Assembly: GCA_013361475.1 (NCBI GenBank)
Contig: JABFYB010000114.1
Location: 1 to 37,307, forward strand
DNA length: 37,307 bases
Direction of reading: 5' to 3'
DNA from: Hamadaea sp.
GTDB lineage: Bacteria; Actinomycetota; Actinomycetes; Mycobacteriales; Micromonosporaceae
Shown: positions 7,476 to 30,709 of the stretch, one piece after another
Layout of the letters: every line of letters starts with the position of its first letter
Numbering within the stretch: position 1 is the first letter of the stretch
Translations under genes and position numbers: made by a program
Notes under the pieces: model-generated
The model's database searches: none
What the model saw: only the letters and a program-made list of their open reading frames with translations
What the model was told of the DNA's origin: nothing

Positions 7476-7534
7476 CTGGATCAGGGTTCTCGGTCGAATC
7501 ATGGAGCAAGATTCGACCGGGAACCCTGATCCAG
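7476..7534. repeat. Long hairpin element, copy 1 of 3
   Basis: The left arm 7476-7500 starts CTGGATCAGGG and ends CGGTCGAATC. It pairs with 7510-7534 over 25 bp with a single T.G wobble. The loop is 9 nt (ATGGAGCAA). It lies between the convergent WYL-regulator and dehydrogenase genes, so it could terminate transcription from both sides. Related copies lie at 16819-16873 and 30651-30709. A 15-bp tandem repeat starts at its right base. Confidence 0.93.
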
Positions 7535-7535
7535 C

Positions 7536-7580
7536 GCCCAGCCGGGCAGCGCCCAGCCGGGCAGCGCCCAGCCGGGCAGC
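7536..7580. repeat. 15-bp tandem repeat, 3 exact copies
   Basis: GCCCAGCCGGGCAGC occurs at 7536-7550, 7551-7565 and 7566-7580. Each unit can fold GCCC onto GGGC. The array sits between hairpin copy 1 and the 3' end of the dehydrogenase gene and is non-coding. Confidence 0.93.
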
Positions 7581-7606
7581 GCACGAGCGTCGCCGCCTCA
7601 GGAGTT

Positions 7607-8482
7607 TCAGTCGAAGCTGGCGAAGTAGGCCGCCGCCATGTCGTCGTCGGCATGCCCGGCGTCGGCGGCCCGTCGCAGGCGTTCCGCGCTCGCGGCCGCC
7701 ACGTCGAGGCGTACGCCGTTCTGCTCGGCGGCCAGCACGATGAGCCCGGCGTCCTTCGCCGCCGTGGCGACCGCGAACGAGGCGGGAGTAAGCCGGTCGT
7801 TGCGGATGAGGTCGGCCTTCACGTGGGCGTACCCCATGTCGAGCGGCCCGCCGCCGATCGCCTCGAAGAAGCCGTCGGGGTCCACGCCCAGCGCCCCGGC
7901 CAGGGCCAGCACCTCGCCGACGGCGTTGGTGGCGGCCAGGACCCAGCTGTTCACCACGAGTTTCAGCCGGGTCGACGCGCCGGTCGCGCCGTCCTCGCCG
8001 GTCCACATCGTCCGCACGCCGACCGCGTCGAACACCGGTGTGACGACGTCCCGGGCGCCGGCCGGTCCGGCCGCGAGGACCAGCAGCTTGCCCGCTTCGG
8101 CGGGCTGACGCGTACCGAGCACCGGGGCGTCGTAGAACACGAGCCCGTGCTCGGTCGCGAACTCGGCCAGCTCGGCGACGGCGTCGACGGCCACGGTGGT
8201 CGACTGGACCCACACGGTCCCGGGCCGCAGCGCGGGGGCTGCTTGGCGCATCACCGCCAGCACGGCGGAGTCGTCGAAGAGCATGGTGAGCACGACGTCG
8301 GCGTCCTGCACCGCTTCGGCGGGCGACTCGGCGACCAGTACGCCGTCGGCCGCCAGCGGCTCGGCCTTGTCCCGGCTCCGGTTCCAGGCCCGGACGGCGT
8401 GGCCGGCGCGTACGAGATTGCGGGCCATCGCCGCGCCCATGATCCCGGTGCCCAGCACTGCGACTGTCGTCTTGTCCGTCAT
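7607..8482 (-). CDS. NAD(P)-dependent beta-hydroxyacid dehydrogenase family protein
   Basis: This protein of about 291 residues has an N-terminal Rossmann motif (VAVLGTGIMGAAMARNLVRAGHAV). It carries the family substrate-region motif in altered form (YDAPVLGTRQPAEAGKL; canonical DAPVSGG-x-x-x-A-x-x-G-x-L). The catalytic lysine is in RLKLVVNSWVLAATN (about Lys174). The superfamily includes 3-hydroxyisobutyrate dehydrogenase, glyoxylate/succinic semialdehyde reductases and imine reductases, and the exact substrate cannot be decided. ATG at 8482 is preferred: a CATGAT box lies 7 nt upstream and would give a leaderless message. An ATG at 8494 adds four residues and has no ribosome site. The gene stands alone, convergent to the WYL regulator and divergent from a small ORF. 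Confidence 0.85.
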   Translation of the reverse strand: MTDKTTVAVLGTGIMGAAMARNLVRAGHAVRAWNRSRDKAEPLAADGVLVAESPAEAVQDADVVLTMLFDDSAVLAVMRQAAPALRPGTVWVQSTTVAVDAVAELAEFATEHGLVFYDAPVLGTRQPAEAGKLLVLAAGPAGARDVVTPVFDAVGVRTMWTGEDGATGASTRLKLVVNSWVLAATNAVGEVLALAGALGVDPDGFFEAIGGGPLDMGYAHVKADLIRNDRLTPASFAVATAAKDAGLIVLAAEQNGVRLDVAAASAERLRRAADAGHADDDMAAAYFASFD

Positions 8483-8580
8483 GAGGTCGATCATGGCATG
8501 GCCGGGTCGAGCCCGCGATCGGGCGCTTCCCCCTGCGCGAGGCCACCCGGCGAGGGAGAATGAACGCGGGGGTGCTGATC

Positions 8581-8784: not shown

Positions 8785-8799
8785 CGGCCGGTGCCGGGA

Positions 8800-9588: not shown

Positions 9589-9594
9589 CCGACG

Positions 9595-9600
9595 AGCCTA
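9595..9600 (-). promoter_or_regulatory. Candidate -10 box for a leaderless AraC regulator transcript
   Basis: TAGGCT on the minus strand ends 6 nt before the GTG at 9588. The gap to the divergent VOC gene (9589-9702) holds both predicted promoters. Confidence 0.45.
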
Positions 9601-9665
9601 CTCAAGCAGCTCGGCGCGGCAGCGCGCGGGCGCAGCGCCCCTCGGCAAGGCTGGCACGAATCTCC

Positions 9666-9695: not shown

Positions 9696-9702
9696 CGAAC
9701 AC

Positions 9703-16423: not shown

Positions 16424-16436
16424 AAGGAGTCCTCTG

Positions 16437-16781
16437 ATGCCTGCTCTGCGTACGGGTCTGGTGCTCGCGATGCTACTCGGCCTGGCCGACCTCGCCCTGC
16501 CGTTCGGCGACGCCGACTTCCCGCCGCTGCCGGTGGCGATCGCGAGTGCCGTCCTCGGCCTGATCACGGTCGTGTCGGCGGTGTACGCCTGGCGCGGGAG
16601 CCGGGTCGCCACGGTCACCGTCGTCGTCACCCGGGTGCTGTCGGCGCTGTCGGCGGTTCCCGCGTTCTTCGTGCCGGACGTCCCGGTGGCTGCCCGCGTC
16701 GCCGCCGCCGTGATCTGCGTACTGACGATCACCGTCGTGGCGTTGGTGAGCCCGGGACTGCGCAAACCGTTGCCCGCCTGA
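16437..16781 (+). CDS. Small membrane protein, four predicted TM segments
   Basis: This 114-residue protein is almost wholly hydrophobic: LVLAMLLGLADLALPF, VAIASAVLGLITVVSAVYAW, VVTRVLSALSAVPAFFV and VAAAVICVLTITVVALVS. No family is recognised. AAAGGAG lies 7 nt before the ATG, and the gene follows its neighbour by 13 bp, so the two form an operon. The pair is divergent from the kinase/regulator genes and may be controlled by them. Confidence 0.75.
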   Translation: MPALRTGLVLAMLLGLADLALPFGDADFPPLPVAIASAVLGLITVVSAVYAWRGSRVATVTVVVTRVLSALSAVPAFFVPDVPVAARVAAAVICVLTITVVALVSPGLRKPLPA

Positions 16782-16818
16782 GCTCGGCACCTCCCCTGGG
16801 CGCTTCCCGTTGGGCGCT

Positions 16819-16873
16819 GGATCACGGTTCCCGGTCGAATCTTGGGCGATGATTCGACCGGGAACCGTGATCC
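16819..16873. repeat. Long hairpin element, copy 2 of 3
   Basis: The left arm 16819-16841 starts GGATCACGG and ends CGGTCGAATC. It pairs without mismatch with 16851-16873 (23 bp), and the 9-nt loop is TTGGGCGAT. The element lies between the convergent small membrane protein gene and esterase gene. Compared with copy 1, one G-C pair has flipped to C-G on both arms (a compensatory change), so the structure itself appears to be selected. Confidence 0.93.
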
Positions 16874-16884
16874 TGTGCGGATGT

Positions 16885-17832
16885 TCAGGGCTTGGGGTGG
16901 GCCAGGAAGAAGTCCCAGCTGATCCCGGTGGCGTCGGGGCCGGCCGGGTCGCCGTAGAGGCTGCACGAGCACCCGCCCGGGTACGCGTGCCCGGCTCCGT
17001 CGATCATGTACTGCTCGACGAGGGGCTGCCCCGTCGCGGTGCGGTAGGTCAGATGCGTGTACGTGCGCCCGCCGGGGGCCTGGGCGTACTCGACGGTGTC
17101 GGCGACGGTGTCGACGTGGCCCACGGTGGTCCACTGCCCGGCGATCCGGTACGCCGTCGACGGCGGGACGACGATGTCGGCGGTGCCCTGCCAGATCACC
17201 ACCGGCACGGGCCGGGCGCGGCTGCCCATCTCGGCCAGTGCGTCGAGGCCGGCCTGCTCCGGCGTACGCAGTTGCAGGATGTCGCATTCGTACTCGCACC
17301 CGGCGAGGATCGCCGCGGAGGCGTACAGGTCGGGGTAGGTGACGGCCATGATGTTGGCCATGACGCCGCCCGCCGAGACGCCGGTGACGTAGACGCGTCG
17401 GGGGTCGACGCTGTAGGTGGACTTCATCCGGTTGGTGATCCCGGCGATGATGGCCGGTTCGCCCCAGCCGCGGTGCAGGTTGGTGGGCAGTGTCCAGTTC
17501 CAGCAGCCGGCCGGGTTGACCAGGTTGTTCTGGTCGGGGAACACGACGATGAAGCCTCGGCGTTCGGCTTCGGCGCTCCATCCGGACAGCAGGTCGAAGC
17601 CCACGTCGTTCTCGGTGCAGCCGTGCAGGGCGACGAGCAGCGGCATCGGCGTGCCCGCCCGATAGGTCGACGGGACGTAGCCGTGGTAGTCGCGAGAGCC
17701 GTAGATGCTGACGTAGGCGCCGGCGAAGTAGGAGCCGCCAGCGGCGTGCGCGGCCGGGGGCGCGGCCACGAGCGCCAGGGTGAACGCGACGGCGGCGATG
17801 AGCGTGCGAAGCAGTCGGGACGGGATTGACAT
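16885..17832 (-). CDS. Secreted PHB-depolymerase / feruloyl-esterase family hydrolase
   Basis: This 315-residue protein has a signal peptide (MSIPSRLLRTLIAAVAFTLALVAAPPAAHA, cleavage after residue 30). The CE1-like esterase domain carries HGCTEND, the nucleophile elbow TGVSAGGVMAN (Ser153), GTADIVVPP (Asp219) and GAGHAYPGG (His282), a complete triad. Several cysteines (Cys72, 110, 179, 183, 288, 290) fit disulfides in a secreted protein. Related enzymes hydrolyse poly-3-hydroxybutyrate, feruloyl-polysaccharide or short acyl esters. ATG at 17832 has AGGAAGG 5 nt upstream; a start at 17859 would lie inside the operator. It is divergent from a TetR gene and shares a gap holding two palindromes. 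Confidence 0.9.
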   Translation of the reverse strand: MSIPSRLLRTLIAAVAFTLALVAAPPAAHAAGGSYFAGAYVSIYGSRDYHGYVPSTYRAGTPMPLLVALHGCTENDVGFDLLSGWSAEAERRGFIVVFPDQNNLVNPAGCWNWTLPTNLHRGWGEPAIIAGITNRMKSTYSVDPRRVYVTGVSAGGVMANIMAVTYPDLYASAAILAGCEYECDILQLRTPEQAGLDALAEMGSRARPVPVVIWQGTADIVVPPSTAYRIAGQWTTVGHVDTVADTVEYAQAPGGRTYTHLTYRTATGQPLVEQYMIDGAGHAYPGGCSCSLYGDPAGPDATGISWDFFLAHPKP

Positions 17833-17856
17833 GCGCGCCTTCCTCTCGAGTACCAT

Positions 17857-17874
17857 CAACCAATCGATTGGTTG
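17857..17874. promoter_or_regulatory. 18-bp perfect palindrome, probable TetR operator O1
   Basis: CAACCAATCGATTGGTTG is a perfect palindrome, 24 bp upstream of the esterase start. Its 14-bp core ACCAATCGATTGGT recurs at 17909-17922. The length and symmetry are typical of TetR-family operators. Confidence 0.85.
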
Positions 17875-17908
17875 GCTGCACTATGGCTCCGCCTTTGGCA
17901 AGATGTCA

Positions 17909-17922
17909 ACCAATCGATTGGT
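17909..17922. promoter_or_regulatory. 14-bp perfect palindrome, probable TetR operator O2
   Basis: ACCAATCGATTGGT, preceded by the same TCA as O1. Its centre is exactly 50 bp from that of O1 and 23 bp upstream of the TetR start, so it probably mediates autorepression of the TetR operon. Confidence 0.85.
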
Positions 17923-17944
17923 ATGGCATGTGGGGAGCTGACGA

Positions 17945-18616: not shown

Positions 18617-18617
18617 C

Positions 18618-19484: not shown

Positions 19485-19497
19485 AGGAGACCCGGGC

Positions 19498-21012
19498 ATG
19501 ACCAACCTGGCCGCCAATCTGACCGCCTCCGCCGCCGAGTTCCCCGACCAGGTCGCGGTGAAGCTCGGCGACCGGACGCTCACCTTCGCCGAGCTGGACG
19601 ACGCCTCGGCGCGGTTCGCCGGCTACCTGCGGCTGACCGGTGTCCAGCCGGGCGACCGCGTCGGCCTGATGCTGCCGAACGTGCCCGAGTTCGCGGTGCT
19701 CTACTACGGCATCCTGCGCGCCGGCGCGGTCGTCGTGCCGATGAACCCGCTGCTCAAGGCCCGGGAGATCGACTACTACCTCGACGACTCCGGCGCCGCC
19801 GGGATGCTGGCCTGGCACACCGTCGCCGACGAGGCCGCCCAAGGTGCACACCGGGCGGACAGTGTCAGCCTGATCATCGACCCGGAGCGGTTCGCCCGCG
19901 AACTGTCCACCTACGACCCGGTGCCGGAGGTGGTCGAGCGGGCGGGCGACGACACCGCCGTCATCCTCTACACCTCGGGCACGACCGGCCGCCCGAAAGG
20001 CGCCGAGCTGACCCACGACAACCTGACCCGCAACGTCGACGTCACCGCGCGTACGCTGCTCGACCTCGGCCCGTCCGATGTGGTGTTCGGCGGTCTGCCG
20101 CTGTTCCACTCGTTCGGCCAGACCGTCGCACTCAACACCGCCGTGGCCGCCGGGGCGACGCTCGTGCTCGTCGCCCGGTTCGAGCCGCAGGCCGCGCTCG
20201 AGCTGCTCGCGACCGAGCAGGCGACCGTCTTCGCCGGCGTGCCCACCATGTACGGCGCTCTGCTGCAAGCCGCCGCAGGGACCGATGTCGAACTGCCGAG
20301 TCTGCGTATCTGCGTCTCCGGCGGGGCCGCCCTGCCGGTCGAGCTGCTGCACCGCTTCGAGGCCCGGTTCGGGGTGGCGATCCTGGAGGGCTACGGGCTG
20401 TCCGAGACCTCGCCGGTGGCCTGCTTCAACCATCCCGACCGGCCCCGCAAGGCCGGCACCATCGGCACGCCGATCGCCGGAGTCGAGATGAAGGTGGTCA
20501 GCCTGCCCGGCGAGGACGGCGTACGCCGTGACCTGGGCGACGGCGAGGTCGGCGAGATCGCCATCCGGGGCCACAACATCATGAAGGGCTACTGGCAGCG
20601 ACCCGAGGCGACCGCCGAGGCCATCGTGGACGGCTGGTTCCACTCCGGCGACCTGGGCCGCCGCGACGCCGACGGCTACTACTCCATCGTCGACCGGGCC
20701 AAGGACATGGTGATCCGGGGCGGCTTCAACGTCTACCCGCGTGAGGTCGAAGAGGTCCTCTACGAGCATCCGGCGGTCGGCGAGGCGGCGGTGCTGGGCA
20801 TGCCGCACCGTACGCACGGCGAAGAGGTCGTGGCCGTCGTCGTGCTGCGCCCGGGTGCCACCGCCACCCCGGAGGAGCTGCGCGACCACGTCAAGGCGCA
20901 GCTCGCGGCGTACAAGTATCCGCGGCACGTCTGGATCGTCGACGCGCTGCCGAAGACCGCGACCGGCAAGATCCTCAAGCGCGAGATCGCCCTTCCGCCG
21001 CTGGCCGGGTAA
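19498..21012 (+). CDS. Long/medium-chain fatty acid-CoA ligase (ANL superfamily)
   Basis: This 504-residue protein has the AMP-binding motif ILYTSGTTGRPKGAELTHDNL (about 157-177). It also has GYGLSETSPVA, then DGWFHSGDLGRRDADGYYSIVDRAKDMVIRGGFNVYPREVEEVL, the A8 hinge region. The catalytic lysine is Lys491 in KTATGKILKREI. It activates a carboxylic acid to the acyl-AMP and then the CoA thioester. The sequence resembles long-chain acyl-CoA synthetases, but chain length is not readable. AAGGAG lies about 9 nt before the ATG, 13 bp after the hydrolase stop. A strong hairpin follows the stop. Confidence 0.93.
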   Translation: MTNLAANLTASAAEFPDQVAVKLGDRTLTFAELDDASARFAGYLRLTGVQPGDRVGLMLPNVPEFAVLYYGILRAGAVVVPMNPLLKAREIDYYLDDSGAAGMLAWHTVADEAAQGAHRADSVSLIIDPERFARELSTYDPVPEVVERAGDDTAVILYTSGTTGRPKGAELTHDNLTRNVDVTARTLLDLGPSDVVFGGLPLFHSFGQTVALNTAVAAGATLVLVARFEPQAALELLATEQATVFAGVPTMYGALLQAAAGTDVELPSLRICVSGGAALPVELLHRFEARFGVAILEGYGLSETSPVACFNHPDRPRKAGTIGTPIAGVEMKVVSLPGEDGVRRDLGDGEVGEIAIRGHNIMKGYWQRPEATAEAIVDGWFHSGDLGRRDADGYYSIVDRAKDMVIRGGFNVYPREVEEVLYEHPAVGEAAVLGMPHRTHGEEVVAVVVLRPGATATPEELRDHVKAQLAAYKYPRHVWIVDALPKTATGKILKREIALPPLAG

Positions 21013-21016
21013 CCCG

Positions 21017-21053
21017 CCGGTGGCCGTCGCACCCGCCTCGCGGCGGCCACCGG
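21017..21053. terminator. Hairpin terminator after the acyl-CoA ligase operon
   Basis: CCGGTGGCCGTCGC (21017-21030) pairs with GCGGCGGCCACCGG (21040-21053) over 14 bp with one T.G wobble. The loop is 9 nt. It begins 4 nt after the ligase stop. There is no T-run, which is usual for actinobacterial terminators. Confidence 0.75.
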
Positions 21054-21111
21054 ACGTATCCTTGAGCGGCGAGGACTCTTTCCGGGCCCGAAGCGTGAAG
21101 GCGGGAGCGGC

Positions 21112-22773
21112 GTGGCAGCGATCGACCAGTCCGTCCCGAACCAGGACCTCGCCGACGGCCGGACGGCGGCCGAGCGGCACGCCTGGGCGGACGCCTTCGA
21201 CTCGCTCTGCCGCGCCGCGGCGGCCACTCCCCTGCCACCTGAGGATCTGTTCCTGCTCGCGACGGCCGCGTATCTGCGGGGCGAGGTCACCGCGTGCGTG
21301 GACGCGCTGCGGCGTGCGTACGAGATCGACGTGCGGGAGATCCGCCCCCGCCGAGCCGCCCGAGCCGCGTTCTGGATGTCGTTCGCGCTGGGCAACCAGG
21401 GCGAGATCGGTCAGGCGAGCGGCTGGCTGGCCCGCGCCGAGGCGCTGCTGGCGGCGGAGCCGGCCGACTGCGCCGAGCGCGGGCTGGTGCTGTCGGCGTA
21501 CGCCTTCCGCAGCAACGCGGGCGGTGACTTCGCGCAGGGGGCCGCCCTCGCTCGTCAGGCGATCGAGATCGGCCGTCGCACCGGCGATCCCGACGTGCAG
21601 GGCCTGGCGTTGACCCAGTGCGGCGGTGCGCTGGTCAAACTCGGACAGGTCGCCGCGGCGGTGCCGATCCTGGACGAGGCGATGCTGGCGGTCGTGGGCC
21701 GCGAGATCTCGCCCATCGCCGCGGGGACGGTGTATTGCGTGGTCATCTCGGTGTTCAGCGAGATGGCCGAGATCCGGCGGGCTCAGGAGTGGACCGACGC
21801 CCTCACCGGCTGGTTGGACCAGCACCACAACATGATCGTCTTCTCGGGGCGTTGTCTCGTGCACCGGGCCGAGCTGCGTCAGCTGCACGGCGACTGGCCC
21901 GGCGCGGTCGAGGAGGCCGAACGCGCCTGCCGTCGGCTGTCCCGCTCGCCGGAGGTGATCTCCAGCGGTGGAGCCCGCTACCAGCAGGCCGAGGTGCTGC
22001 GGCGGTGGGGCGATTACGCGGCGGCCGAACAGGCGTACCGGGCGGCCGCCGAATGGGGGCATGAGCTGTGCCCGGGCCTGGCGCTGCTCCGGCTGGCCCA
22101 GGGCGACACCGCCACCGCACGGTCGGCGCTGCGCCGGGCGCTGGGCGAGACGTCGGACCGGCTCCGGCGAGCCCGGCTGCTGCCCGCCCAGGTCGAAGTC
22201 GAACTGGCCGCCGGGGACCCCGCGTCGGCCCGCGCGGCAGCGGCCGAACTGGCGACGATCGCCGAGGTCTACGGAGCCCCGGCGCTGCTCGCCCAGGTCC
22301 ATTACGCCCGCGGAGCGGTCCTCCTCGCTGAGGATGACCCGGTGGGGGCGCTCACCGAGCTGCGCTCGGCCGCCCACTTCTGGCGCGATCTCGACGTGCC
22401 TTACGAGGCGGCCCGGTCACGTGTCCTCATCGCGCAGGCGTGCCGCCGGCTGGGCGACGAAGACACCACCGCACTGGAGCTGGCCGCGGCGGAGGCCGTC
22501 TTCACCCAGCTCGGCGCCCGGCCTGACCAGGCCCGGGTGACCGCGCTGCGGGCGGATCCGGCGCCTTCCGCGCACGGGCTGACCCCACGCGAACTGCAGG
22601 TGCTCCGCCTGGTCGCCACCGGCAAGACCAACAGCGCCATCGCCCGCGAGCTGTCGCTGTCGGAGAAGACCGTCGAGCGTCACCTCAGCAACGTCTTCAC
22701 CAAGATCGGCGTCTCGTCCCGGGCCGCTGCCACCGCGTACGCCTTCCAGCAACACCTCATCGATCAGTCGTGA
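21112..22773 (+). CDS. LuxR-family regulator with TPR-like sensor region
   Basis: This 553-residue protein consists of about 480 residues of helical repeats of TPR type. Examples are GQASGWLARAEALLAAEPADCAERGLVLSAYAF and AGDPASARAAAAELATIAEVYGAPALLAQVHYARGAVLLAEDDP. The C-terminal LuxR HTH is LTPRELQVLRLVATGKTNSAIARELSLSEKTVERHLSNVFTKIGVSSRAAATAYAF. No N-terminal STAND ATPase is present, unlike the large LuxR (LAL) regulators, so this is a shortened form. The GTG at 21112 has GGGAG 5 nt upstream. It is immediately followed by a flavin monooxygenase gene on the same strand, its likely target. Confidence 0.88.
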   Translation: MAAIDQSVPNQDLADGRTAAERHAWADAFDSLCRAAAATPLPPEDLFLLATAAYLRGEVTACVDALRRAYEIDVREIRPRRAARAAFWMSFALGNQGEIGQASGWLARAEALLAAEPADCAERGLVLSAYAFRSNAGGDFAQGAALARQAIEIGRRTGDPDVQGLALTQCGGALVKLGQVAAAVPILDEAMLAVVGREISPIAAGTVYCVVISVFSEMAEIRRAQEWTDALTGWLDQHHNMIVFSGRCLVHRAELRQLHGDWPGAVEEAERACRRLSRSPEVISSGGARYQQAEVLRRWGDYAAAEQAYRAAAEWGHELCPGLALLRLAQGDTATARSALRRALGETSDRLRRARLLPAQVEVELAAGDPASARAAAAELATIAEVYGAPALLAQVHYARGAVLLAEDDPVGALTELRSAAHFWRDLDVPYEAARSRVLIAQACRRLGDEDTTALELAAAEAVFTQLGARPDQARVTALRADPAPSAHGLTPRELQVLRLVATGKTNSAIARELSLSEKTVERHLSNVFTKIGVSSRAAATAYAFQQHLIDQS

Positions 22774-22843
22774 GGGAAATCCCCCATCCGGCGATCGGAC
22801 AGGGTGCGGGGTTCTGCCGAAGCGCGCGGACTCGGGCCGGCCA

Positions 22844-22849
22844 TAGCGT
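22844..22849 (+). promoter_or_regulatory. Candidate -10 box for a leaderless flavin monooxygenase transcript
   Basis: TAGCGT lies 6 nt before the ATG at 22856 and no ribosome site is visible. The 82-bp gap also begins with GGGAAATCCCCC, a near-symmetrical sequence that could be a regulator site. Confidence 0.45.
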
Positions 22850-22855
22850 CGGGGC

Positions 22856-23971
22856 ATGAACACGAACCATGTCGAGACGTTGATCATCGGAGCCGGCCAG
22901 GCGGGCCTGTCGACCGGCTACCACCTGCGGAGACTGGGCCGGCCGTTCCTCATCGTGGACGCCCACGACGAGATCGGCGACGTCTGGCGGCGGCGCTGGG
23001 ACTCGCTGCGGCTGTTCACCCCGGCCCGCTACGACGCCCTTCCCGGAATGGCCTTCCCCGATCACGGGTTCGCCTTCCCGACCAAGGACCAGATGGCCGA
23101 CTACCTGCAGGCGTACGCCGAGCGGTTCCAGCTCGACGTGGAGACCGGCGTACGCGTCGACGCCCTGACCCGGACCGACGAAGGTTTCCTCGTCGACGCG
23201 GGCGCGCGGCAGTACACCGCGGACAACGTCGTCGTCGCGATGGGCAACCAGCAGCAGCCGAAGCTGCCCGAGTTCGCCGCCGACCTGAGTCCGGCCATCA
23301 CGCAGCTGCATTCGATCGCCTACCGCAACCCTGGCCAGCTCCAGCCGGGCACCGTCCTGGTCGTCGGCGCGGGCAACTCCGGCGCCGAGATCGGCCTCGA
23401 ACTCGCGCGTACGCACAAGGTGGTCGTCGCGGGCCGGGACACCGGGCACCTGCCGTTCCGCATCGCGGGCTGGCCGAGTCGGCTGCTGTTGAGCCGGGTC
23501 GTGCTCCGGCTGGTCTTCCACCGGCTGCTGAGCGTCGCCACGCCGATCGGGCGCAAAGCCCAGGCGGCCGCCCACAGCGGTGGCGGGCCACTGATCCGGA
23601 CCCGGCCGCGGGAGCTGGCCGAAGCCGGGGTCGTCCGCGCGCCCAAGATGGTCGGCGTGCAAGACGGCCTGCCGGTGCTCGCCGACGGTCAGGTCGTCGC
23701 CGCCGACAACGTCGTGTGGTGCACCGGCTACGAACCGGGCTTCTCGTGGGTGAACATCCCCGTCCTCGACGGCGTGACACCCCGGCACGACCGCGGCATG
23801 GTGCCGGAGGTTCCCGGGCTCTACTTCACCGGGCTGCACTTCCAGTACGCCTTCTCCTCCGGCATGGTGCAGGGCGCGGGACGCGACGCCGAACGCGTGG
23901 CGAAGGCGATCGCGGCCCGCCCGGTCACCGCACCGATTCACCAGGGCAGGGTGCCGTTGGCGTCGAAGTAG
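22856..23971 (+). CDS. FAD/NAD(P)-dependent monooxygenase (CzcO/YUC-like)
   Basis: This 371-residue protein has an FAD-binding motif at 11-17 (IIGAGQAGLSTGYHLRRLG). The flavin-monooxygenase region GDVWRRRWDSLRLFTPARYDALPGM follows. The second, NADPH-binding dinucleotide motif is VVGAGNSGAEIGLELARTH (about 170-188), then the GYEPGFSWVNIPV segment and the C-terminal VPGLYFTGLHFQYAFSSGMVQGAGRDAERVA. Such enzymes hydroxylate N, S or carbonyl compounds; the substrate is unknown. The predicted -10 gives a leaderless ATG. The last 34 bp overlap the 3' end of the convergent SDR gene. Confidence 0.9.
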   Translation: MNTNHVETLIIGAGQAGLSTGYHLRRLGRPFLIVDAHDEIGDVWRRRWDSLRLFTPARYDALPGMAFPDHGFAFPTKDQMADYLQAYAERFQLDVETGVRVDALTRTDEGFLVDAGARQYTADNVVVAMGNQQQPKLPEFAADLSPAITQLHSIAYRNPGQLQPGTVLVVGAGNSGAEIGLELARTHKVVVAGRDTGHLPFRIAGWPSRLLLSRVVLRLVFHRLLSVATPIGRKAQAAAHSGGGPLIRTRPRELAEAGVVRAPKMVGVQDGLPVLADGQVVAADNVVWCTGYEPGFSWVNIPVLDGVTPRHDRGMVPEVPGLYFTGLHFQYAFSSGMVQGAGRDAERVAKAIAARPVTAPIHQGRVPLASK

Positions 23972-24645
23972 CCGCCGGTGGGGCCGTCCGGTCCCAGGCC
24001 GGCCATCCGCACGATGATCTCGGCCCCCTGCTCGACCGTCTGGTGCCCGGTGTTGCCGTTGAGGTCGGTCTTGGTGAAGCCCGGCTCGACGGCGTTGATC
24101 CGGATCCCCGGGTACGCCTTCGCGTACTGCACGGTGAGCATGTTCAGGGCGGTCTTCGACGCCGGATAGGCCACCCCGGGATACGCGTACGCCGGAGTGC
24201 CGGGCGTCGTCACCCGGCTGAGCGAACCCAGACCGCTGCTGACGTTGACGACGACCGGGGATGCCGAGCGGAGCAGCAGCGGCAGGAACGCGTGCAGGAC
24301 GCGTACCGGGCCGAAGACGTTGGTCTCGAAGGTCTGGCGCATCATCTCGGCGGTGAGGCCGTCGGCGCCGACGATGCCGCCGTCGTGCATCTCGACCTGG
24401 ATTCCGGCGTTGTTGACCAGCACGTCCAGTCCGCCGTCGGCCTCGATCGCACGAGCCGCCGCTTCGACGGAGGCGTCGTCGGTGACGTCGAGCTGCACGG
24501 AGCGTACGCCCAGCCGCAGCGCCGCAGCACGGCCGCGCTCCGCGTCGCGGCTTCCGATGTAGACGGTGTGGCCGGCGTCGTTCAGGCGGCGGACGGTCTC
24601 GAGGCCGAGGCCCTTGGTCGCGCCCGTGATCAGGGTGATTGTCAT
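23938..24645 (-). CDS. Short-chain dehydrogenase/reductase (SDR)
   Basis: This protein of about 235 residues is a classical SDR. The cofactor motif is MTITLITGATKGLGLETVRRLNDAG, with LDVTDDASVE, LVNNAGIQ and a catalytic serine region VVVNVSSGLGSL. The active-site motif is YPGVAYPASKTALNMLTVQYAK (Tyr-x-x-x-Lys) and the C-terminus ends VEPGFTKTDLNGNTGHQTVEQGA. ATG at 24645 is preferred since a TAGGGT box lies 7 nt upstream; an ATG at 24651 would add two residues. It is head-to-head with a MerR gene only 24 bp away and is very likely its target. Confidence 0.92.
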   Translation of the reverse strand: MTITLITGATKGLGLETVRRLNDAGHTVYIGSRDAERGRAAALRLGVRSVQLDVTDDASVEAAARAIEADGGLDVLVNNAGIQVEMHDGGIVGADGLTAEMMRQTFETNVFGPVRVLHAFLPLLLRSASPVVVNVSSGLGSLSRVTTPGTPAYAYPGVAYPASKTALNMLTVQYAKAYPGIRINAVEPGFTKTDLNGNTGHQTVEQGAEIIVRMAGLGPDGPTGGYFDANGTLPW

Positions 24646-24652
24646 GATCATG

Positions 24653-24662
24653 ACCCTAGAAT
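24653..24662. promoter_or_regulatory. Overlapping face-to-face -10 boxes of SDR and MerR genes
   Basis: On the minus strand TAGGGT (24653-24658) lies 7 nt before the SDR ATG at 24645. On the plus strand TAGAAT (24657-24662) lies 7 nt before the MerR GTG at 24670. The two boxes share two base pairs, and neither gene has a ribosome site, so both transcripts are probably leaderless and mutually exclusive. Confidence 0.5.
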
Positions 24663-24669
24663 TGAGAGC

Positions 24670-25146
24670 GTGCTCGAAGTCAAGGGAATGACCATCGCGG
24701 AGGCGGCCCGGCGTACCGGGGTCAGCGTGCACACTTTGCGCTACTACGAACGGGCCGGGCTGGTCGTCACGGTCGGGCGGACCGCCACCGGGCGGCGGCG
24801 TTACCAGCAGATCGACCTGGACTGGATCGCGATCTGCACTCGGTTGCGCGCCACCGGCATGCCGATCCGCACCATCCGCCGGTACGCCGACCTCGTCGCG
24901 GCCGGCCGCAGCAACGAACGGGAGCGGCTGGCGCTGCTGGAGACCCATCGGGCCGAGGTCGCGGCCCAGCTGGAGGAGCTGCGGCAGAATCTCGCCGCCA
25001 TCGACCACAAGATCGACGTCTACCGGGACCGGCTCGACTCCGGGGATCTCGACGGGCTCTGGGAACCGGGCGCGGAGTGCACGGAGACGGTGGCCGCCAG
25101 CAGTCGCAGCGCCGCCTCGGAGGGCGTACCGGGGGCGGCGGTGTAG
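24670..25146 (+). CDS. MerR-family transcriptional regulator
   Basis: This 158-residue protein has the winged HTH MTIAEAARRTGVSVHTLRYYERAGLVVTVGRTATGRRRYQQIDLDWIAICTRLRATGMPIRTIRRY. A coiled-coil dimerisation helix follows (ERERLALLETHRAEVAAQLEELRQNLAAIDHKIDVYRDRL). No metal-binding cysteines of the MerR metal-sensor type are present; this is the aldehyde/redox-type subgroup. GTG at 24670 is chosen; ATG at 24688 is an alternative but its purine run is adjacent. The family normally ends near LDGLWEP (about residue 132). The remaining 25 or so residues read through into the antisense of the XRE gene, giving a 127-bp convergent overlap. Confidence 0.9.
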   Translation: MLEVKGMTIAEAARRTGVSVHTLRYYERAGLVVTVGRTATGRRRYQQIDLDWIAICTRLRATGMPIRTIRRYADLVAAGRSNERERLALLETHRAEVAAQLEELRQNLAAIDHKIDVYRDRLDSGDLDGLWEPGAECTETVAASSRSAASEGVPGAAV

Positions 25147-25934
25147 GTGATGACGCGGCTGCCGTTGCCGTCGGGCAGGTGCAGCAGCTCGAAGTCCAGG
25201 TCGAGCGGGCCGACCTCGGGATGATGGAGGCGCTTGGTGCCGGTCGTGCAGTTCTGCACCGACTGACGCGACCACAGCGCCGCGAACTCCCGGCTTTTCA
25301 CCGACAGTTCGCCGACCAGTTCGGCCAGTTCGCGGTCGTCGGGATAGCCGCCGGTGACCAGCCGCAGCGAGGCGACCGCGCGGGCAGCCTCCTCCTTCCA
25401 GCGGGGATACAAGTCACGGGTGTGCGGGTCGCAGAACAGCATCCGGGTGAGGTTGGGCCGGTCGGCGATCCGGTCGGGCGCGCCGACGTCGTAGTGCCCG
25501 GCCAGCAGCAGGTGGCCGAGCTGGTTCCAGGCGAGCACGTCGCTACGGCGGTCCATGACGACCGCCGGCACGCCGCTCATCGCCGTCAGCAGTTGGCGTA
25601 CGCCGGAGCGGGCGGTCTGCGGGCGCGGCGGACGGGGGCGGCGGGCCGGTCGCGGGCGGGCCAGGTTGTGCAGGTGCGCCCGTTCGTCGTCGGACAGGTT
25701 GAGCGCCCGACCGAGAGCGTCGATGACCGACTCGGAGGCGTTGGCGCTCTGCCCCTGTTCCAGCCGGGTGTAGTAGGTGAGGCTGACCCCGGCGAGCTGG
25801 GCGAGTTCTTCCCGGCGCAGGCCCGGCACCCGGCGAGCCCCGTACGAGGTGAGGCCGACGTCTTGCGGGGACAGCCGGGCGCGCCGGCTGCGCAGGAACT
25901 CGCCGAGGTCGGTGCCGGTCGTTTCGCCGTTCAT
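25020..25934 (-). CDS. XRE-family regulator with MmyB-like ligand domain
   Basis: This 304-residue protein has an N-terminal Cro/C1 HTH: LGEFLRSRRARLSPQDVGLTSYGARRVPGLRREELAQLAGVSLTYYTRLEQGQSANASESVIDALGRAL. The MmyB-like ligand domain then contains MDRRSDVLAWNQLGHLLLAGH, RMLFCDPHTRDLYPRWKEEAARAVASLRLVTGGYPDD and FELLHLPDGNGSRVITYTAAPGTPSEAALRLLAA. The usual end is LLAA; about 22 extra residues follow and overlap the MerR gene. It is divergent from a DHA2 exporter (151-bp gap), which it probably regulates. ATG at 25934 begins just before the HTH. Confidence 0.92.
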   Translation of the reverse strand: MNGETTGTDLGEFLRSRRARLSPQDVGLTSYGARRVPGLRREELAQLAGVSLTYYTRLEQGQSANASESVIDALGRALNLSDDERAHLHNLARPRPARRPRPPRPQTARSGVRQLLTAMSGVPAVVMDRRSDVLAWNQLGHLLLAGHYDVGAPDRIADRPNLTRMLFCDPHTRDLYPRWKEEAARAVASLRLVTGGYPDDRELAELVGELSVKSREFAALWSRQSVQNCTTGTKRLHHPEVGPLDLDFELLHLPDGNGSRVITYTAAPGTPSEAALRLLAATVSVHSAPGSQSPSRSPESSRSR

Positions 25935-26085
25935 GATCACAGTGTGCCTCGCGGCGGTGGGCGTTGCCTGTCCCTGTGAGTGATAGGCAGCCGCTGACCA
26001 GTCAGATCGCGGTCTGGTGGGGGTTCGGGGAGCCGCCGCAGAGTGAGTCGCATCCCGATCATCACTGCGGAAGGACACGATCGCC

Positions 26086-27531
26086 ATGGCGGTCATCGAT
26101 CAGCTCGGCACCACGGCTCCGGCCGGCACCACGGCTCCGGCCGCTGCCCTGGGCCGGCGCGACCGGCTCACCCTGCTCGTCCTGCTGACGGCGGGCTTCA
26201 CCCTCGCCGTCGACTTCTCCATCCTCAACGTCGCGTTGCCGGTGATCGGCGCGGACGTCGGCCTGCCGCTGCACGCCCTGCAATGGATCGCCACCGCGTT
26301 CGCATTGTGCGCCGCCGGGTTCACCCTGCTCTTCGGGCGGATCGCCGATCTGTTCGGACGGCGTCGGCTGTTCCTGGCCGGTTTGGCGCTGCTGGGCGTC
26401 TCGTCGTTGGCCGGCGGGCTGGCCACTACGCCGGGCGTGCTGCTGGCGGCCCGGGCGTTGCAGGGCCTGGCCACCGCCGCCGTCACCCCGGCCGCGCTGT
26501 CGTTGCTGACGACGTCGTTCGGCGAGGGACCGCGGCGCGACAAGGCGCTGGGCCTCAACGGCGCGCTCACCGCCGCCGGTTTCACCACCGGCGCGATCCT
26601 CGGCGGTGTGGTCACCGACCTGCTGAGCTGGCGGTGGGCGTTCTTCATCAACGTCGTCGTCGCCGTCGTGGTGCTGCCGATCGCGGTCCGCGTCCTGCCG
26701 GAGGGCCGTCCGCCGGCCCGGCCCGCGCTCGACCTGTCCGGCGCGGTGACGGTCACCCTCGGGCTGCTCGCCCTGGTGTACGGGTTGACGACCGCCGGGC
26801 AGACGTCGTGGCGTGATCCGCTCGTCATCGGTTCGCTCGCGGCCGCGGTCGCGTTGCTGGCCGCGTTCTGGGTGATCGAGCGCCGCCACCGGCAGCCGCT
26901 CGTGCCGGTGTCGGTGCTCCGGCGGCCGACGGTGGCCTGGGGCAACTTCGCCGGGCTGATGGCGTTCGCGACCGAGACGTCGCTCGTGTTCCTGCTGACC
27001 CTGTACCTGCAGGAGGTGCTGGGCTATTCGCCGCTGGCGGCCGGGCTGGCGTTCTCGGTGCTCGGCGCGGGCACCGTCGCCGGTGGGCTGCTCGGCCCGC
27101 GGGTGATCGGCCGGCTGGGCGCCAAGGCGGGGATCGTGGCCGCGCTGCTGGTGCAGACGGCCGCGACGGCGCCGCTGGTCTTCCTCGGCTCCGATCCGGC
27201 TTGGATCGGCCTGCTGCTGCCGTTGACCTTCGTCGGCGGCGTGGCGAACCTCGTGGCGATCGTCGGCTTCATGGTGACTGCCACCTCGGGCCTGCCGGAC
27301 GGTGAGCAGGGCCTGGCGACCGGTCTGACGACGATGAGCCAGCAGGTCGGGATCACGCTCGGCATCCCGGTCATGTCGGCGGTCGTCGCGGGGTCGCTGG
27401 GCGGTCACGCCGGCTCGGGCGCGGTGCTGCGCGCCGTCACGATCGCCGTCGCGGCCAACGCCGTGCTGTGCCTGGTCGCGGCGCTTCTGATCGCGGTCTT
27501 CCTGCGTACGCGGGCCGGTCGGCGGGCGTAG
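26086..27531 (+). CDS. MFS transporter, DHA2 (14-TM) family
   Basis: This 481-residue protein has about 14 TM segments. TM1 carries LAVDFSILNVALPVIGADVG, TM2 LQWIATAFALCAAGFTLLFGRIADLFGRRRLFLAG (motif A), then ARALQGLATAAVTPAALSLL and GAILGGVVTDLLSWRWAFFINV. The N-terminus has a duplicated GTTAPA, encoded by an 18-bp direct repeat. GGAAGGA lies about 8 nt upstream of the ATG. The gene is divergent from the XRE/MmyB-like regulator, a common arrangement in actinobacteria for exporter control. An alpha/beta hydrolase follows on the same strand with its own putative promoter. Confidence 0.9.
   Translation: MAVIDQLGTTAPAGTTAPAAALGRRDRLTLLVLLTAGFTLAVDFSILNVALPVIGADVGLPLHALQWIATAFALCAAGFTLLFGRIADLFGRRRLFLAGLALLGVSSLAGGLATTPGVLLAARALQGLATAAVTPAALSLLTTSFGEGPRRDKALGLNGALTAAGFTTGAILGGVVTDLLSWRWAFFINVVVAVVVLPIAVRVLPEGRPPARPALDLSGAVTVTLGLLALVYGLTTAGQTSWRDPLVIGSLAAAVALLAAFWVIERRHRQPLVPVSVLRRPTVAWGNFAGLMAFATETSLVFLLTLYLQEVLGYSPLAAGLAFSVLGAGTVAGGLLGPRVIGRLGAKAGIVAALLVQTAATAPLVFLGSDPAWIGLLLPLTFVGGVANLVAIVGFMVTATSGLPDGEQGLATGLTTMSQQVGITLGIPVMSAVVAGSLGGHAGSGAVLRAVTIAVAANAVLCLVAALLIAVFLRTRAGRRA
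26107..26142. repeat. 18-bp tandem duplication inside an exporter N-terminus
   Basis: GGCACCACGGCTCCGGCC occurs at 26107-26124 and again at 26125-26142 without mismatch. It encodes GTTAPA twice, in frame, ahead of TM1. Confidence 0.95.
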
Positions 27532-27546
27532 GCGCCGGTTGCGCGG

Positions 27547-27552
27547 TAGCGT
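27547..27552 (+). promoter_or_regulatory. Candidate -10 box for a leaderless alpha/beta hydrolase transcript
   Basis: TAGCGT lies 7 nt before the ATG at 27560, immediately after the exporter stop at 27531. The hydrolase may thus be transcribed separately from the exporter. Confidence 0.4.
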
Positions 27553-27559
27553 CCGGGAC

Positions 27560-28372
27560 ATGAGCTTTCTCGATGTCCCGGGCGCCCGCCTGTATTACGA
27601 GTCGCAGGGCGAGGGCCCGTTGCTGCTGCTCATCGGGTCGCCGATGGACAGCACCGGGTTCGCCCCGCTGGCCCAGGTGATGGCCGAGCGGTACACCGTG
27701 GTGACTTACGACCCGCGTGGGATCGGCAAGAGCACCCGGGAGGACGCCGACGCGGACATCACGCCGGAGGTGCAGGCCGACGACGTACACCGGCTCATCG
27801 AGAGTCTCGGCGGCGGGCCGGTCGACTACCTGGGCAGCAGCGGCGGCGCGGTCGTCGGGCTGGCGCTGATCACGGCGCATCCGGGCGATGTGCGTACGCT
27901 GGTCGCCCACGAGCCGCCGATCGTCGAGACGCTGCCGGACTCCGCCGAGGTCCACGCGAAGTTCGAGGAGATCTATCAGACGTTCCTGGCGCAGGGCAGC
28001 ATGCCGGCGCTGACCATGTTCCTCACCTATGCGGGGCTCGCCGGGATGGGTCAGCAGGACGACGTGCCGCGCTGGGAGCCGTCACCGGAACAGCTGGCCA
28101 CCATGGAGGCGACCAACACGGTGTTCTTCGGCCATCTGATCCGGCAGACCACCGCGTTCGTACCGGACCTGGACGCGTTGCGGACGTCGCCGGTCCGGAT
28201 CGTGGTCGGAGTGGGTGCGGCGTCGAAGGGCCAGTTCGCCCGGCGGTGCGCCGAGGTCTTCGCCGGCCAGGTGGGGCTGACGCCCGTGGAGTTCACCGGC
28301 GACCACGGCGGCTTCGCCGCCCACGCACCGGAGTTCGCGGAGCAGCTCACAGCGGTGCTGCAGGAAACCTGA
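27560..28372 (+). CDS. Alpha/beta hydrolase
   Basis: This 270-residue protein starts with MSFLDVPGARLYYESQGEGPLLLLIGSPMDSTGFAPLAQVMAERYTVVTYDPRGIGKS, the typical strand 3/4 region. The nucleophile elbow is YLGSSGGAVVGLAL. The C-terminal histidine is probably in TGDHGGFAAHAPEFAEQL. There is no signal peptide. The function is not determinable beyond hydrolase. It lies 28 bp after the DHA2 exporter and could share its transcript or use its own TAGCGT promoter. ATG at 27560 matches the usual family start. Confidence 0.88.
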   Translation: MSFLDVPGARLYYESQGEGPLLLLIGSPMDSTGFAPLAQVMAERYTVVTYDPRGIGKSTREDADADITPEVQADDVHRLIESLGGGPVDYLGSSGGAVVGLALITAHPGDVRTLVAHEPPIVETLPDSAEVHAKFEEIYQTFLAQGSMPALTMFLTYAGLAGMGQQDDVPRWEPSPEQLATMEATNTVFFGHLIRQTTAFVPDLDALRTSPVRIVVGVGAASKGQFARRCAEVFAGQVGLTPVEFTGDHGGFAAHAPEFAEQLTAVLQET

Positions 28373-28429
28373 CAGGGAAGAGCCGGACCGATAGCGGTGC
28401 CGACTTGACGGCTTCGGCATGATAGGCCG

Positions 28430-30595
28430 GTGACTTCGAGCGGCCAGGCTGGCACCGATGCCCTCACTCCGGTGGCAGTGCTAGACGACAAGGGCAGAAT
28501 CCGGATCGGGCGCGATCCGGGTAACGACATCGTGCTGCCGGACCTGTGGGTCTCCGGCTCGCACGCGGAGATCCGGCGCGTCGGCACCGGGCATCAGCTG
28601 GTGGACCTGGGCAGCACCAACGGCATCCACCACAATGGACGGCGCGTGCAGAAGGGCGACCTGAAACCGGGCGACCGGTTCACCGTCGGCCGGCACGAGT
28701 TCCTCTACGACGGCGCACGGCTCTATCAGCACGACGACCAGGGTCCGACCTCGTTCGTCGCGGACGACATCACGGTGGACGTCGGAAAGGCGACTCTGCT
28801 CGACGACGTGAGCTTCGCGTTGCAGCAGGGCACGCTGCTCGGCATCATCGGCCCGAGCGGGTGCGGCAAGTCCACCCTGGTGAAGGCGATGACCGGCTTC
28901 CAGAAGCCGTCGCGGGGCGAGCTGCTCTACGACGGGCGCGACCTCTACGAGCACTACTCCGAGCTGCGTCACCGCATCGGCATGGTGCCGCAGGACGACG
29001 TGCTGCACCGGCAGCTGACCGTGCAGCGGGCGCTGCGGTTCTCGGCGTCCCTGCGATTCGCCGACGACGTGCCACGCCGGCAGCGCAAGCAACGAGTCGC
29101 CGACGTGCTCGAACTCCTCGGTCTGCGCGAGCGGGCCCGGCAGCGTATCGACACGCTGTCCGGCGGCCAGCGCAAGCGCACCTCGGTCGCGCTGGAGCTG
29201 CTCACCGAGCCGTCGCTGCTGGCCCTGGACGAACCCACCTCGGGCCTCGACCCCGCGCTGGACAAGGAGGTCATGCGGGAGCTGCGGCTGCTCGCCGACC
29301 GGGGGCGTACCGTCGTGGTGGTCACGCACAGCGTGCTGCACCTGGACATCTGCGACCGCGTCCTGGTCATGTGCATGGGCGGGCACATGGGCTACTTCGG
29401 CCCGCCCGACGAGGTCCTGCCGTTCTTCGGCGCCGAGGACTACGCCGACGTCTTCCACAAGGTCACCAACGAGCCCCGGCGCTGGTCGCAGGAGTTCCGC
29501 AACTCCGAGGTCTACCGCCGCTACGTCGGTGACGTGGCGCAGGAGCTGGCCCGGATCTCCGACGCACGCAAGGAACTCGTGACGGTCGCCGCCGCACCGG
29601 TGGCGGAGCCGGTCGACGAGGCCGTCATCGAGGAGCCGGCCGCCGTCGTGGAAGGCCCGCCGGTGCCCAAGCAGGCCGGTCCGCCGGAGGCGGAGACGAC
29701 CCGGTTCGCCGACGCCGCCAAACCGGCGCAGTCCGCTCCTTCCGGCGTACAAGATCTGTCTATCAAGGATCGTGCGCGGCATCCGCGCGCGCCCCTGCGG
29801 GCCTTCATCACGCTGTGCTGGCGGATGCTCGCCGTGATCGCCTCGGACCGCGGGTATGCCGCGTTCCTGGTGGGATTGCCCCTGGCCCTGGCGATTCTGA
29901 GCCGGGCGGTGCCCGGTGACAAGGGGTTGAGCGCGGACCCGGAGGGATTCGCGCTGGAGGGGCAGCGGCTCATCGTCGTGTTCGTGATCGGCGCGGCGTT
30001 CATGGGTGTGGCGGTGGCGATCCGCGAGATCGTCAACGAACAGTCGATCTATCGGCGGGAACGGGCGATCGGCCTGTCCCCCACCGCCTACCTGTTGTCG
30101 AAGGTCGTCGTCTTCCTCGTCATCGACGCGATCCAGTGCGCGATCTTCGTCTACCTGGCCATGTTCGACCGGCCCAAGCCGCCCGCGGCCCTGGTGCTCG
30201 GCGATCCGATGATCGAGATCACGGTGGCGGCGACGCTCGTGGCGATCGCGTCGACCTCGCTCGGCCTGCTCGCCAGCGCCCTGGTCCGCACGACCGAGCA
30301 GACGACGCCGATCCTGGTCGTCAGCGTGATGTTCCAGCTGGTGCTCTCGGGTGGCCTGTTCGAGATCACCGGCCAGCGGGCGCTGGAGATCATCTCGGCG
30401 ATCGACCCGTCCCGGTGGGGCTTCGCCGCCGGCGCGGCCACGACCAACCTGGTCGGCTTCCCGTTCCCGGAGGCGATCTGGGCGCCGACCCCGTTCAACT
30501 GGTGGCGGGCGGTCGCGGTGCTGCTGCTGCACATCGCGGTGCTCCTGGTGGCGGCCCGGTTCGCGTTGCGGCGGTTCGAACCCGGCCGGAACTGA
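28430..30595 (+). CDS. FHA-ABC transporter fusion (Rv1747-like, ABCG-type)
   Basis: This 721-residue protein has an N-terminal FHA domain (IRIGRDPGNDIVLPDLWVSGSHAEI, then LVDLGSTNGIHHNGRRV, about 23-85), which binds phosphothreonine. An ATPase follows with Walker A GPSGCGKSTL, signature LSGGQRKRTSVALELL, Walker B LLALDEPTSGLD and the switch histidine in VVTHSVLH. A Pro/Ala/Glu-rich linker (about 385-445) leads to a C-terminal ABC2-type membrane domain with about six TM helices (FLVGLPLALAILSRAV to LLLHIAVLLVAARFALRRFE). The layout matches mycobacterial Rv1747, a Ser/Thr kinase-regulated exporter, except that one FHA domain is seen instead of two. GTG at 28430 has CATGAT 6 nt upstream and no ribosome site. 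Confidence 0.93.
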   Translation: MTSSGQAGTDALTPVAVLDDKGRIRIGRDPGNDIVLPDLWVSGSHAEIRRVGTGHQLVDLGSTNGIHHNGRRVQKGDLKPGDRFTVGRHEFLYDGARLYQHDDQGPTSFVADDITVDVGKATLLDDVSFALQQGTLLGIIGPSGCGKSTLVKAMTGFQKPSRGELLYDGRDLYEHYSELRHRIGMVPQDDVLHRQLTVQRALRFSASLRFADDVPRRQRKQRVADVLELLGLRERARQRIDTLSGGQRKRTSVALELLTEPSLLALDEPTSGLDPALDKEVMRELRLLADRGRTVVVVTHSVLHLDICDRVLVMCMGGHMGYFGPPDEVLPFFGAEDYADVFHKVTNEPRRWSQEFRNSEVYRRYVGDVAQELARISDARKELVTVAAAPVAEPVDEAVIEEPAAVVEGPPVPKQAGPPEAETTRFADAAKPAQSAPSGVQDLSIKDRARHPRAPLRAFITLCWRMLAVIASDRGYAAFLVGLPLALAILSRAVPGDKGLSADPEGFALEGQRLIVVFVIGAAFMGVAVAIREIVNEQSIYRRERAIGLSPTAYLLSKVVVFLVIDAIQCAIFVYLAMFDRPKPPAALVLGDPMIEITVAATLVAIASTSLGLLASALVRTTEQTTPILVVSVMFQLVLSGGLFEITGQRALEIISAIDPSRWGFAAGAATTNLVGFPFPEAIWAPTPFNWWRAVAVLLLHIAVLLVAARFALRRFEPGRN

Positions 30596-30650
30596 CGCTT
30601 TACGCGCCTCGGCGCTCGCGTTGGCCCGCTCGCGCCGGCCGGCTTAGGTG

Positions 30651-30709
30651 CTGGATCAGGGATATCGGTCGAATCTTGGGGAAAGATTCGGCCGATACCC
30701 CTGATCCAG
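30651..30709. repeat. Long hairpin element, copy 3 of 3
   Basis: The left arm 30651-30675 starts CTGGATCAGGG and ends CGGTCGAATC. It pairs with 30685-30709 over 25 bp with one A-C mismatch and one T.G wobble; the 9-nt loop is TTGGGGAAA. It lies between the FHA-ABC gene and the co-directional Fpg/Nei gene, 56 bp after the former's stop, so it could terminate the ABC transcript. Confidence 0.92.

Follow-up and report, generated by a model that had tools for sequence, protein, structure and literature searches.

Untagged families resembling repetitive extragenic palindromes (REPs) have been described in bacteria, among them stem-loop sequences (SLS), of which the Bor repeats of Bordetella are an example, and the available parts of the two sources (PMC1590033, by Petrillo et al. 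2006, and PMC3733652, by Di Nocera and colleagues 2013) present them as palindromic, extragenic, present in many copies, and concentrated at gene 3' ends and in convergent regions. The second source, in the same part, gives terminal GTAG or CGTC tags as the defining marks of REPs, and a population size of 91-323 per genome is stated for REPINs (REP doublets forming hairpins) in the available part of PMC8049555. REP-like repeats are usually explained by RAYTs (REP-associated tyrosine transposases). Here we describe a family of palindromic elements, family A, represented by three long hairpins in a stretch of 37,307 nt from Hamadaea sp. (contig JABFYB010000114.1; the window). Family A probably consists of untagged REP-like dispersed palindromes that spread by a non-RAYT process and are tolerated, perhaps co-opted, at mRNA 3' ends. 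It shares with the SLS and Bor repeats, as portrayed in those parts of PMC1590033 and PMC3733652, all the properties listed above. Unlike them, it is longer (about 65 nt, with a 28-bp stem), has a tiny loop, is found in one genus among the genomes searched, and shows several coexisting families and a concerted inner-stem difference in one congener. Compared with REPs and REPINs, as far as the available parts of PMC3116915 and PMC8049555 go, family A has a similar population size, the form of an inverted doublet, an extragenic location, and a frequent sequence with variants, but no RAYT was found in the four genomes, it has no GTAG/CGTC tag, its half-sites are only 9 nt apart, and its preference for 3' ends is strong. 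Micromonospora and Salinispora have 0 occurrences in the available text of PMC1590033 and PMC3733652, and a literature search by title and start of abstract returned no paper about these Hamadaea repeats.

The preliminary description of the window proposed that the three hairpins belong to one family, a proposal that would have fallen had only these three copies been found. With up to two mismatches allowed, the core pattern matched the window's own genome (G000; 7.1 Mb, 831 contigs, 87.7% complete) 194 times on the forward and 191 times on the reverse strand, clearly more than three, and the reversed-pattern control gave 0 and 1 matches. Because the element is palindromic, forward and reverse matches are mostly the same loci, and the family therefore comprises about 200 loci in this genome. 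The same pattern gave 168/171, 108/104, and only 2/2 matches in three congeners (G001-G003, presumably Hamadaea; G003 is a single contig of 100% completeness), the third pair of values being that of G001, and 0-12 matches per strand in 57 genomes of other genera. A strict 20-base pattern found 10 stretches in the named genome collection, all from Hamadaea sp. Bin2.24, with own-genome records possibly excluded. Moreover, a covariance model built from 36 copies had at least 150 matches in each of G003 and G002, and under stricter filters it retained 12 of 354 Micromonosporaceae genomes, namely the four Hamadaea and eight weak cases from three other genera. In the consensus, TTGnnnCAA links a pair of 28-nt half-sites, GCGCTGGATCAGGGTTCTCGGTCGAATC, in inverted orientation, and the best-conserved blocks, GATCA, GG, and GTCGAATC, carry 1.8-2.0 bits per base. 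The palindromic apex GAATCTTGNNNCAAGATTC, with at most one mismatch, occurred 150, 167, 118, and 75 times per strand in G000, G001, G002, and G003, respectively, and a single palindromic match was detected in one of the 350 other Micromonosporaceae genomes searched.

The position of the copies relative to genes was analyzed in 138 strong copies (42 from G000, 48 from G002, and 48 from G003) with a simple gene caller of our own; part of the G003 copies came from a contiguous stretch at 4.4-5.6 Mb, chosen where matches were dense, and the remaining copies were collected as matches. Intergenic regions held 112 copies, called open reading frames (ORFs) held 14, and 12 lay at sequence edges. The intergenic copies were distributed as 54 convergent, 54 tandem, and 4 divergent, and the intergenic bases are 13% convergent, 55% tandem, and 32% divergent, giving a convergent excess (p = 2.5e-19) and a divergent depletion (p = 1e-13). 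The contiguous G003 stretch showed 9 convergent, 12 tandem, and 0 divergent copies and 4 in ORFs among its 25 (p = 0.0009 and 0.0003). The median distance to a stop codon was 24 nt, and 96 of 108 copies were found within 50 nt, compared with 70% for positions drawn at random from those regions. Of the 54 tandem copies, 45 were at most 50 nt from the upstream stop, compared with 48% at random; convergent regions are short, and placement near a stop is uninformative by itself there. Copy number and gene-end position thus bear out the proposal of a large dispersed palindrome family at gene 3' ends. Since PMC1590033, in its available part, reports that intergenic stem-loops prefer 3' ends and convergent regions in all bacteria studied, this bias is expected for a family of this kind. 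The domains of 10 of the 14 ORFs with an internal copy were scanned, and 7 had a Pfam match: the element coincided with the last domain's end or followed it in five (two MFS proteins, TMP-TENI, PAP2, and DUF397), ahead of the domain in one (subtilase), and within the domain region in one (MatE/polysaccharide flippase). In the ORF L209:8006-9544(-), which has weak MatE/polysaccharide-flippase matches, the element lies in mid-ORF and is read through in frame. Three ORFs end within the element (L229:6564-7391(-), L231:9933-11198(+), and L240:10072-10947(-)), which gives them a similar C-terminal tail, ALDQGS.SNL..., and a stop codon; this stop is the TGA of the right arm in two of the three.

The congener with almost no core matches, G001, has not lost the palindrome. 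The pattern TCACCCGAATCN9GATTC matched this genome 180/188 times, and G000, G002, and G003 8/6, 6/3, and 4/4 times, respectively. In the four G001 copies read, the apex and the outer GGATCA(G/C)GG block were kept, and the inner stem was different on both arms; this is concerted turnover. An identical 29-mer, loop included, was present at 44 G001 loci, and the commonest 27-nt centre occurred 4, 5, and 6 times in the 42, 48, and 48 copies of G000, G002, and G003. Recent spread from a dominant copy would give such identity. A comparable situation was observed in another genus (g17), where the weak model matches combined an apex of this kind with another stem, GCAGTTTCGGGGAAA; with at most one mismatch, this stem motif occurred 16-282 times per strand in all 11 g17 genomes and at most 5 times per strand elsewhere among the 354 genomes. 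The copies read at the g17 loci L107, L115, L116, L120, and L121 carry a similar GAATCTTGG apex. Within Hamadaea, at least four further hairpin families, B (GATCACGGTTACGCATGC), C (GATCAGGGATATGCNTGCGATCTTGG), D (TGATCATTGCGCCAGCCATGCTGT), and E (GATCGTCGGCTGCCGACG), were seen in the G003 stretch (L132-L191) and at G000 and G002 loci, mostly in the same 3'-end contexts as family A, and the outer GATCA(G/C)GG block is common to A, B, and C. The family B half-site was found on the forward strand 54, 81, and 106 times in G000, G002, and G003 and not in G001, and the 57 further genomes searched had 0-1 matches per strand. Strong intergenic inverted repeats numbered 100 in the 1.2-Mb G003 stretch, and 52 of them matched motifs of these families.

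A transposase of the Y1 type linked to the copies, or target-site duplications around them, had been suggested as signs of a mobile element; no such transposase was found, and no target-site duplication could be seen. None of the four Hamadaea genomes matched the Y1_Tnp domain (PF01797); positives were 8 of 61 searched genomes and the E. coli control. Six of the 11 g17 genomes contained Y1_Tnp, and the three richest in copies (G019, G144, and G145) did not. Membership in the RAYT/REPIN group was rejected on these grounds. Terminal GTAG or CGTC tags were absent from the consensus ends and from the per-position base counts, and the REP-like traits that do apply are many similar, extragenic, 3'-biased palindromes with no tag and no recognised transposase. 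Classical REPIN/RAYT or miniature inverted-repeat transposable elements (MITEs), mobilised by a transposase that the genome encodes, would account for REPIN-like populations, for the frequent sequence with variants in G001, and for several families side by side. The Y1_Tnp results in both genera speak against them, as do the lack of visible target-site duplications and the genes between 15 close copy pairs, which shared no homologue save in one orthologous pair (a comparison of these intervals, not a genome-wide search for transposons flanked by elements). We regard this explanation as very improbable, and its Y1 form is mostly refuted. Two genera of one family thus hold large lineage-specific palindrome populations with no detectable Y1/RAYT in four of four genomes of one and the three richest of the other, and how such repeats spread and remain similar becomes a concrete, testable question.

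The explanation that we favour, an untagged REP-like family, would work as follows. Copies would spread and homogenise within the genome as DNA, via a process other than a Y1/RAYT transposase. They were probably born as symmetric palindromes and later drifted at loosely held positions, and they would survive mainly just behind stop codons because genes and promoters stay unbroken there. Once transcribed, the 28-bp hairpin probably helps to set or shield the 3' end of the mRNA and to limit convergent read-through. A broader version, which we put forward as a tentative possibility, is that a RAYT-independent class of miniature mobile palindromes exists in Micromonosporaceae, in which an enzyme would read the apex GAATCTTGNNNCAAGATTC and its variants and copy the elements to gene ends, which would yield populations particular to each genus and species; stems would switch in concert and the apex would stay, and families would replace one another as interchangeable 3'-end hairpins.

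The preliminary description also took the stems as a sign of selection on structure. In the 138 copies, 3439 of 3864 pairs (28 per copy) were Watson-Crick, compared with 3372 expected with independent arms. The values were 546 of 672 versus 544.7 for independent half-sites in the G003 stretch (24 copies), and 1062 of 1176 versus 1046.4 in G000 (42 copies, obtained almost entirely by pattern matching). Because total pairing is so near the independent expectation, two conserved half-sites account for most of the symmetry. Pair 19-47 showed no covariation (64 versus 63.7 expected), with 37 C.C and 28 G.G combinations, and weak covariation was detected at pairs 20-46, 5-61, and 18-48 (4, 9, and 16 of 300 shuffles, respectively). 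In orthologous copies, 9 double changes kept pairing, and one-sided changes broke a pair 18 times and mended one 14 times. The sense strand of tandem copies had no G.U bias (39 G.U versus 33 A.C; p = 0.56), and nothing points to the RNA strand as the target of selection. Strong compensatory evolution as a general claim was discarded given the near-independent total, the null result at 19-47, and the one-sided changes. What stands is weak and partial, namely a few covarying pairs and halves that are alike: the same five-position variant was present in both halves of 52 of the 138 copies, compared with 16.2 expected. The excess was largest in G002 (27 of 48 versus 8.5), which is given less weight because a model score or a pattern with exact symmetry had served to select these copies. 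The remaining symmetry could go back to copies that were born symmetric and then drifted, or to weak selection for pairing. A third explanation for the palindrome is a dyad site for a dimeric DNA-binding protein, be it nucleoid- or chromosome-organising or polymerase-related, that reads each half-site separately. Both the total pairing, near that of independently drawn half-sites, and the information content of the conserved blocks agree with it. The halves of a copy, however, resemble each other more than shuffled ones do, which separate reading does not predict; an operator of 65 nt would be very long, the scarcity of copies in divergent regions (4 of 112) does not fit a promoter operator, and the inner stem shows concerted differences between species. 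A dyad site is therefore scarcely probable.

Several results weigh against the favoured explanation of family A as spreading REP-like palindromes. No mobilising gene was identified, and reading by eye gave no clean empty site or target duplication, the orthologous element-free regions being different along most of their length. The 3'-end position alone is no proof of function, because the bias is general for intergenic stem-loops (PMC1590033, available part). The two halves shared the five-position variant in 6 of 24 copies of the G003 stretch, compared with 1.1 expected (0 of 1000 shuffles), and in 13 of 42 copies of G000, compared with 6.7 (4 of 1000 shuffles); positions 15 and 17 carry this sharing, and 18 and 19 do not. 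Pairs 15-51 (109 versus 80) and 17-49 (136 versus 124.5) covaried, each with 0 of 300 shuffles as high. Selection on pairing would explain like halves and covarying pairs as well. Finally, with the element masked, another terminator-like structure was present at 3 of 60 element-bearing 3' ends in G003, 1 of 41 in G002, and 3 of 41 in G000 (counts derived from rounded fractions), and 3' ends without an element held one in 13%, 16%, and 9% of cases; pooled, the masked ends gave 7 of 142 (about 5%), and G000 alone 7 versus 9%. This scarcity could mean that the element itself terminates transcription. Because less sequence was scanned at element-bearing ends, the deficit hints at substitution and is no proof of it.

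Intrinsic bidirectional terminators are stable stem-loops just behind the stops of convergent genes. Family A fits this description, and a family of sequence-conserved terminators, whose hairpin halts RNA polymerase from both sides and is kept for that function, would explain the median distance of 24 nt from the stop, the 54 of 112 intergenic copies in convergent regions, the high stability on both strands, the half-to-half symmetry with covariation at 15-51 and 17-49, and the small number of other terminator-like structures in the same regions. Unlike intrinsic terminators, the elements are conserved from base to apex and have no wobble bias on the transcript strand, and no U-tract follows the 3' arm: at +3, A was found in 57-68% and T in 12-22%, and at least four T in the next 8 nt were present at 2% of 190 family-like ends (A-E together), compared with 17% of 82 other hairpin ends. 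A terminator scan over positions 16500-31500 of the window did not call copies 2 and 3, and called a separate U-tailed hairpin right behind copy 3 (Table 1), which also figures among the inverted repeats of the window. Furthermore, C.C or G.G mismatches occupied stem pair 19 in 65 of the 138 copies, and termination leaves genus-wide sequence identity and the concerted stem difference of G001 unexplained. Intrinsic terminators were thus set aside as the defining identity by the missing U-tract and wobble bias; of the bidirectional-terminator option raised at the outset, the stable stem-loop just behind stops is retained and the U-tract is wanting, and we consider this option unlikely.

Orthologous sites were compared as syntenic gene pairs among three genomes (G000, G002, and G003), each row being counted per species pair, so that one site may count twice. 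Convergent rows had the element in both species in 7 cases, in one in 8, and in neither in 30; the values were 10, 10, and 131 for tandem and 0, 3, and 40 for divergent rows. With rows defined loosely, which counts some related C-type hairpins as A, presence was associated between species (Fisher p = 0.0016 and 6e-9), and in 11 of 17 two-sided rows both copies scored at least 48. Many orthologous sites have either gained or lost the element, and about half have kept it. Two convergent and one tandem one-sided rows were gene-call artefacts, in which the element or a related hairpin was present. Another strong hairpin stood in 4 of 8 convergent rows lacking A as computed, or 4 of 6 without the artefacts, against a background of 23% of 60, and in 2 of 9 tandem rows, against 7% of 262. 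The four convergent replacements were two of family B, one of family D, and one unique hairpin. Such replacement also counts in favour of the terminator explanation, and gene ends with swapped hairpin families offer a natural experiment on U-tract-less 3' hairpins in high-GC actinomycetes. Copy 3 of the window has an orthologous copy in G003 (L072). At the site L216 of G000 (about 15865), compared with 158502-158771 of the G003 stretch, the 9-nt loop of the G003 A hairpin had become about 45 nt with the arms kept. One orthologous pair (G000_L227 and G003_L235) fitted better after inverting one copy (5 versus 9 differences), and the other ten strict pairs had no clear orientation preference.

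The three copies in the window are the top three inverted repeats of this DNA, each with arms 93% complementary, and their positions and neighbours are given in Table 1.

Table 1. Copies of family A in the window and the adjacent terminator-like hairpin
Feature	Position	Strand	Remarks	Inverted-repeat arms	Flanking genes	Neighbouring products
Copy 1 of palindromic element	7473..7537	.	65-nt frame, hairpin 7475-7535; between convergent genes	7475-7503/7507-7535	6441-7427(+)/7607-8494(-)	WYL/HTH regulator and NAD-binding dehydrogenase
Copy 2 of palindromic element	16814..16878	.	between convergent genes	16814-16841/16851-16878	16437-16781(+)/16885-17832(-)	protein without Pfam match and PHB-type esterase
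Copy 3 of palindromic element	30648..30712	.	hairpin 30650-30710; between co-directional genes	30650-30677/30683-30710	28478-30595(+)/30762-31589(+)	FHA/ABC transporter and formamidopyrimidine-DNA glycosylase
Terminator-like hairpin	30723..30756	+	canonical, T-rich tail; directly 3' of copy 3; outside family A

The core alignment of the three is gapless, and the features first noted in them were found again: the basal GGATCA, CGGTCGAATC in the 5' arm adjoining the loop, a 9-nt loop in every copy (ATGGAGCAA, TTGGGCGAT, and TTGGGGAAA), the C-G swap of copy 2 (stem pair 12), and the wobbles; copy 3 has in addition one A.C mismatch on the + strand. The stem length of 23-25 bp had to be extended slightly, to the dimensions of the full element, and the palindrome continues weakly beyond it, with T at -3 and A at +3. 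In copies 1 and 3, the inverted-repeat arms extend into the loop. Folding energies lay between -48.6 and -53.4 kcal/mol for the two strands of each copy (z between -9.9 and -11.3), and 0 of 200 shuffles folded as well. Our own gene calls confirmed the intergenic setting, two convergent and one co-directional, and the nearest stop codon was about 10-60 nt from each copy, in agreement with the closeness first reported. The functions of the genes beside the three copies are unrelated. No Rfam family reached its gathering score in the window, and no tRNA was found there. A single motif resembling DNA-uptake sequences was rejected, as GGTCGAATC had 12 matches with at most one mismatch in the window, compared with 10.65 expected; its five exact matches all fall on half-sites of copies 1-3. 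Short stretches of the element edge or flank were seen duplicated in tandem at 7535-7584 of the window, where GCGCCCAGCCGGGCA repeats on the 3' side of copy 1 are an example, and at loci L006, L069, L073, and L094, and they perhaps arose by replication slippage beside the hairpin. Lastly, the perfect palindrome ACCAATCGATTGGT occurs twice at 17859-17922, where the genes 16885-17832(-) and 17945-18616(+) diverge, and this pair looks like paired operator sites for a regulator.

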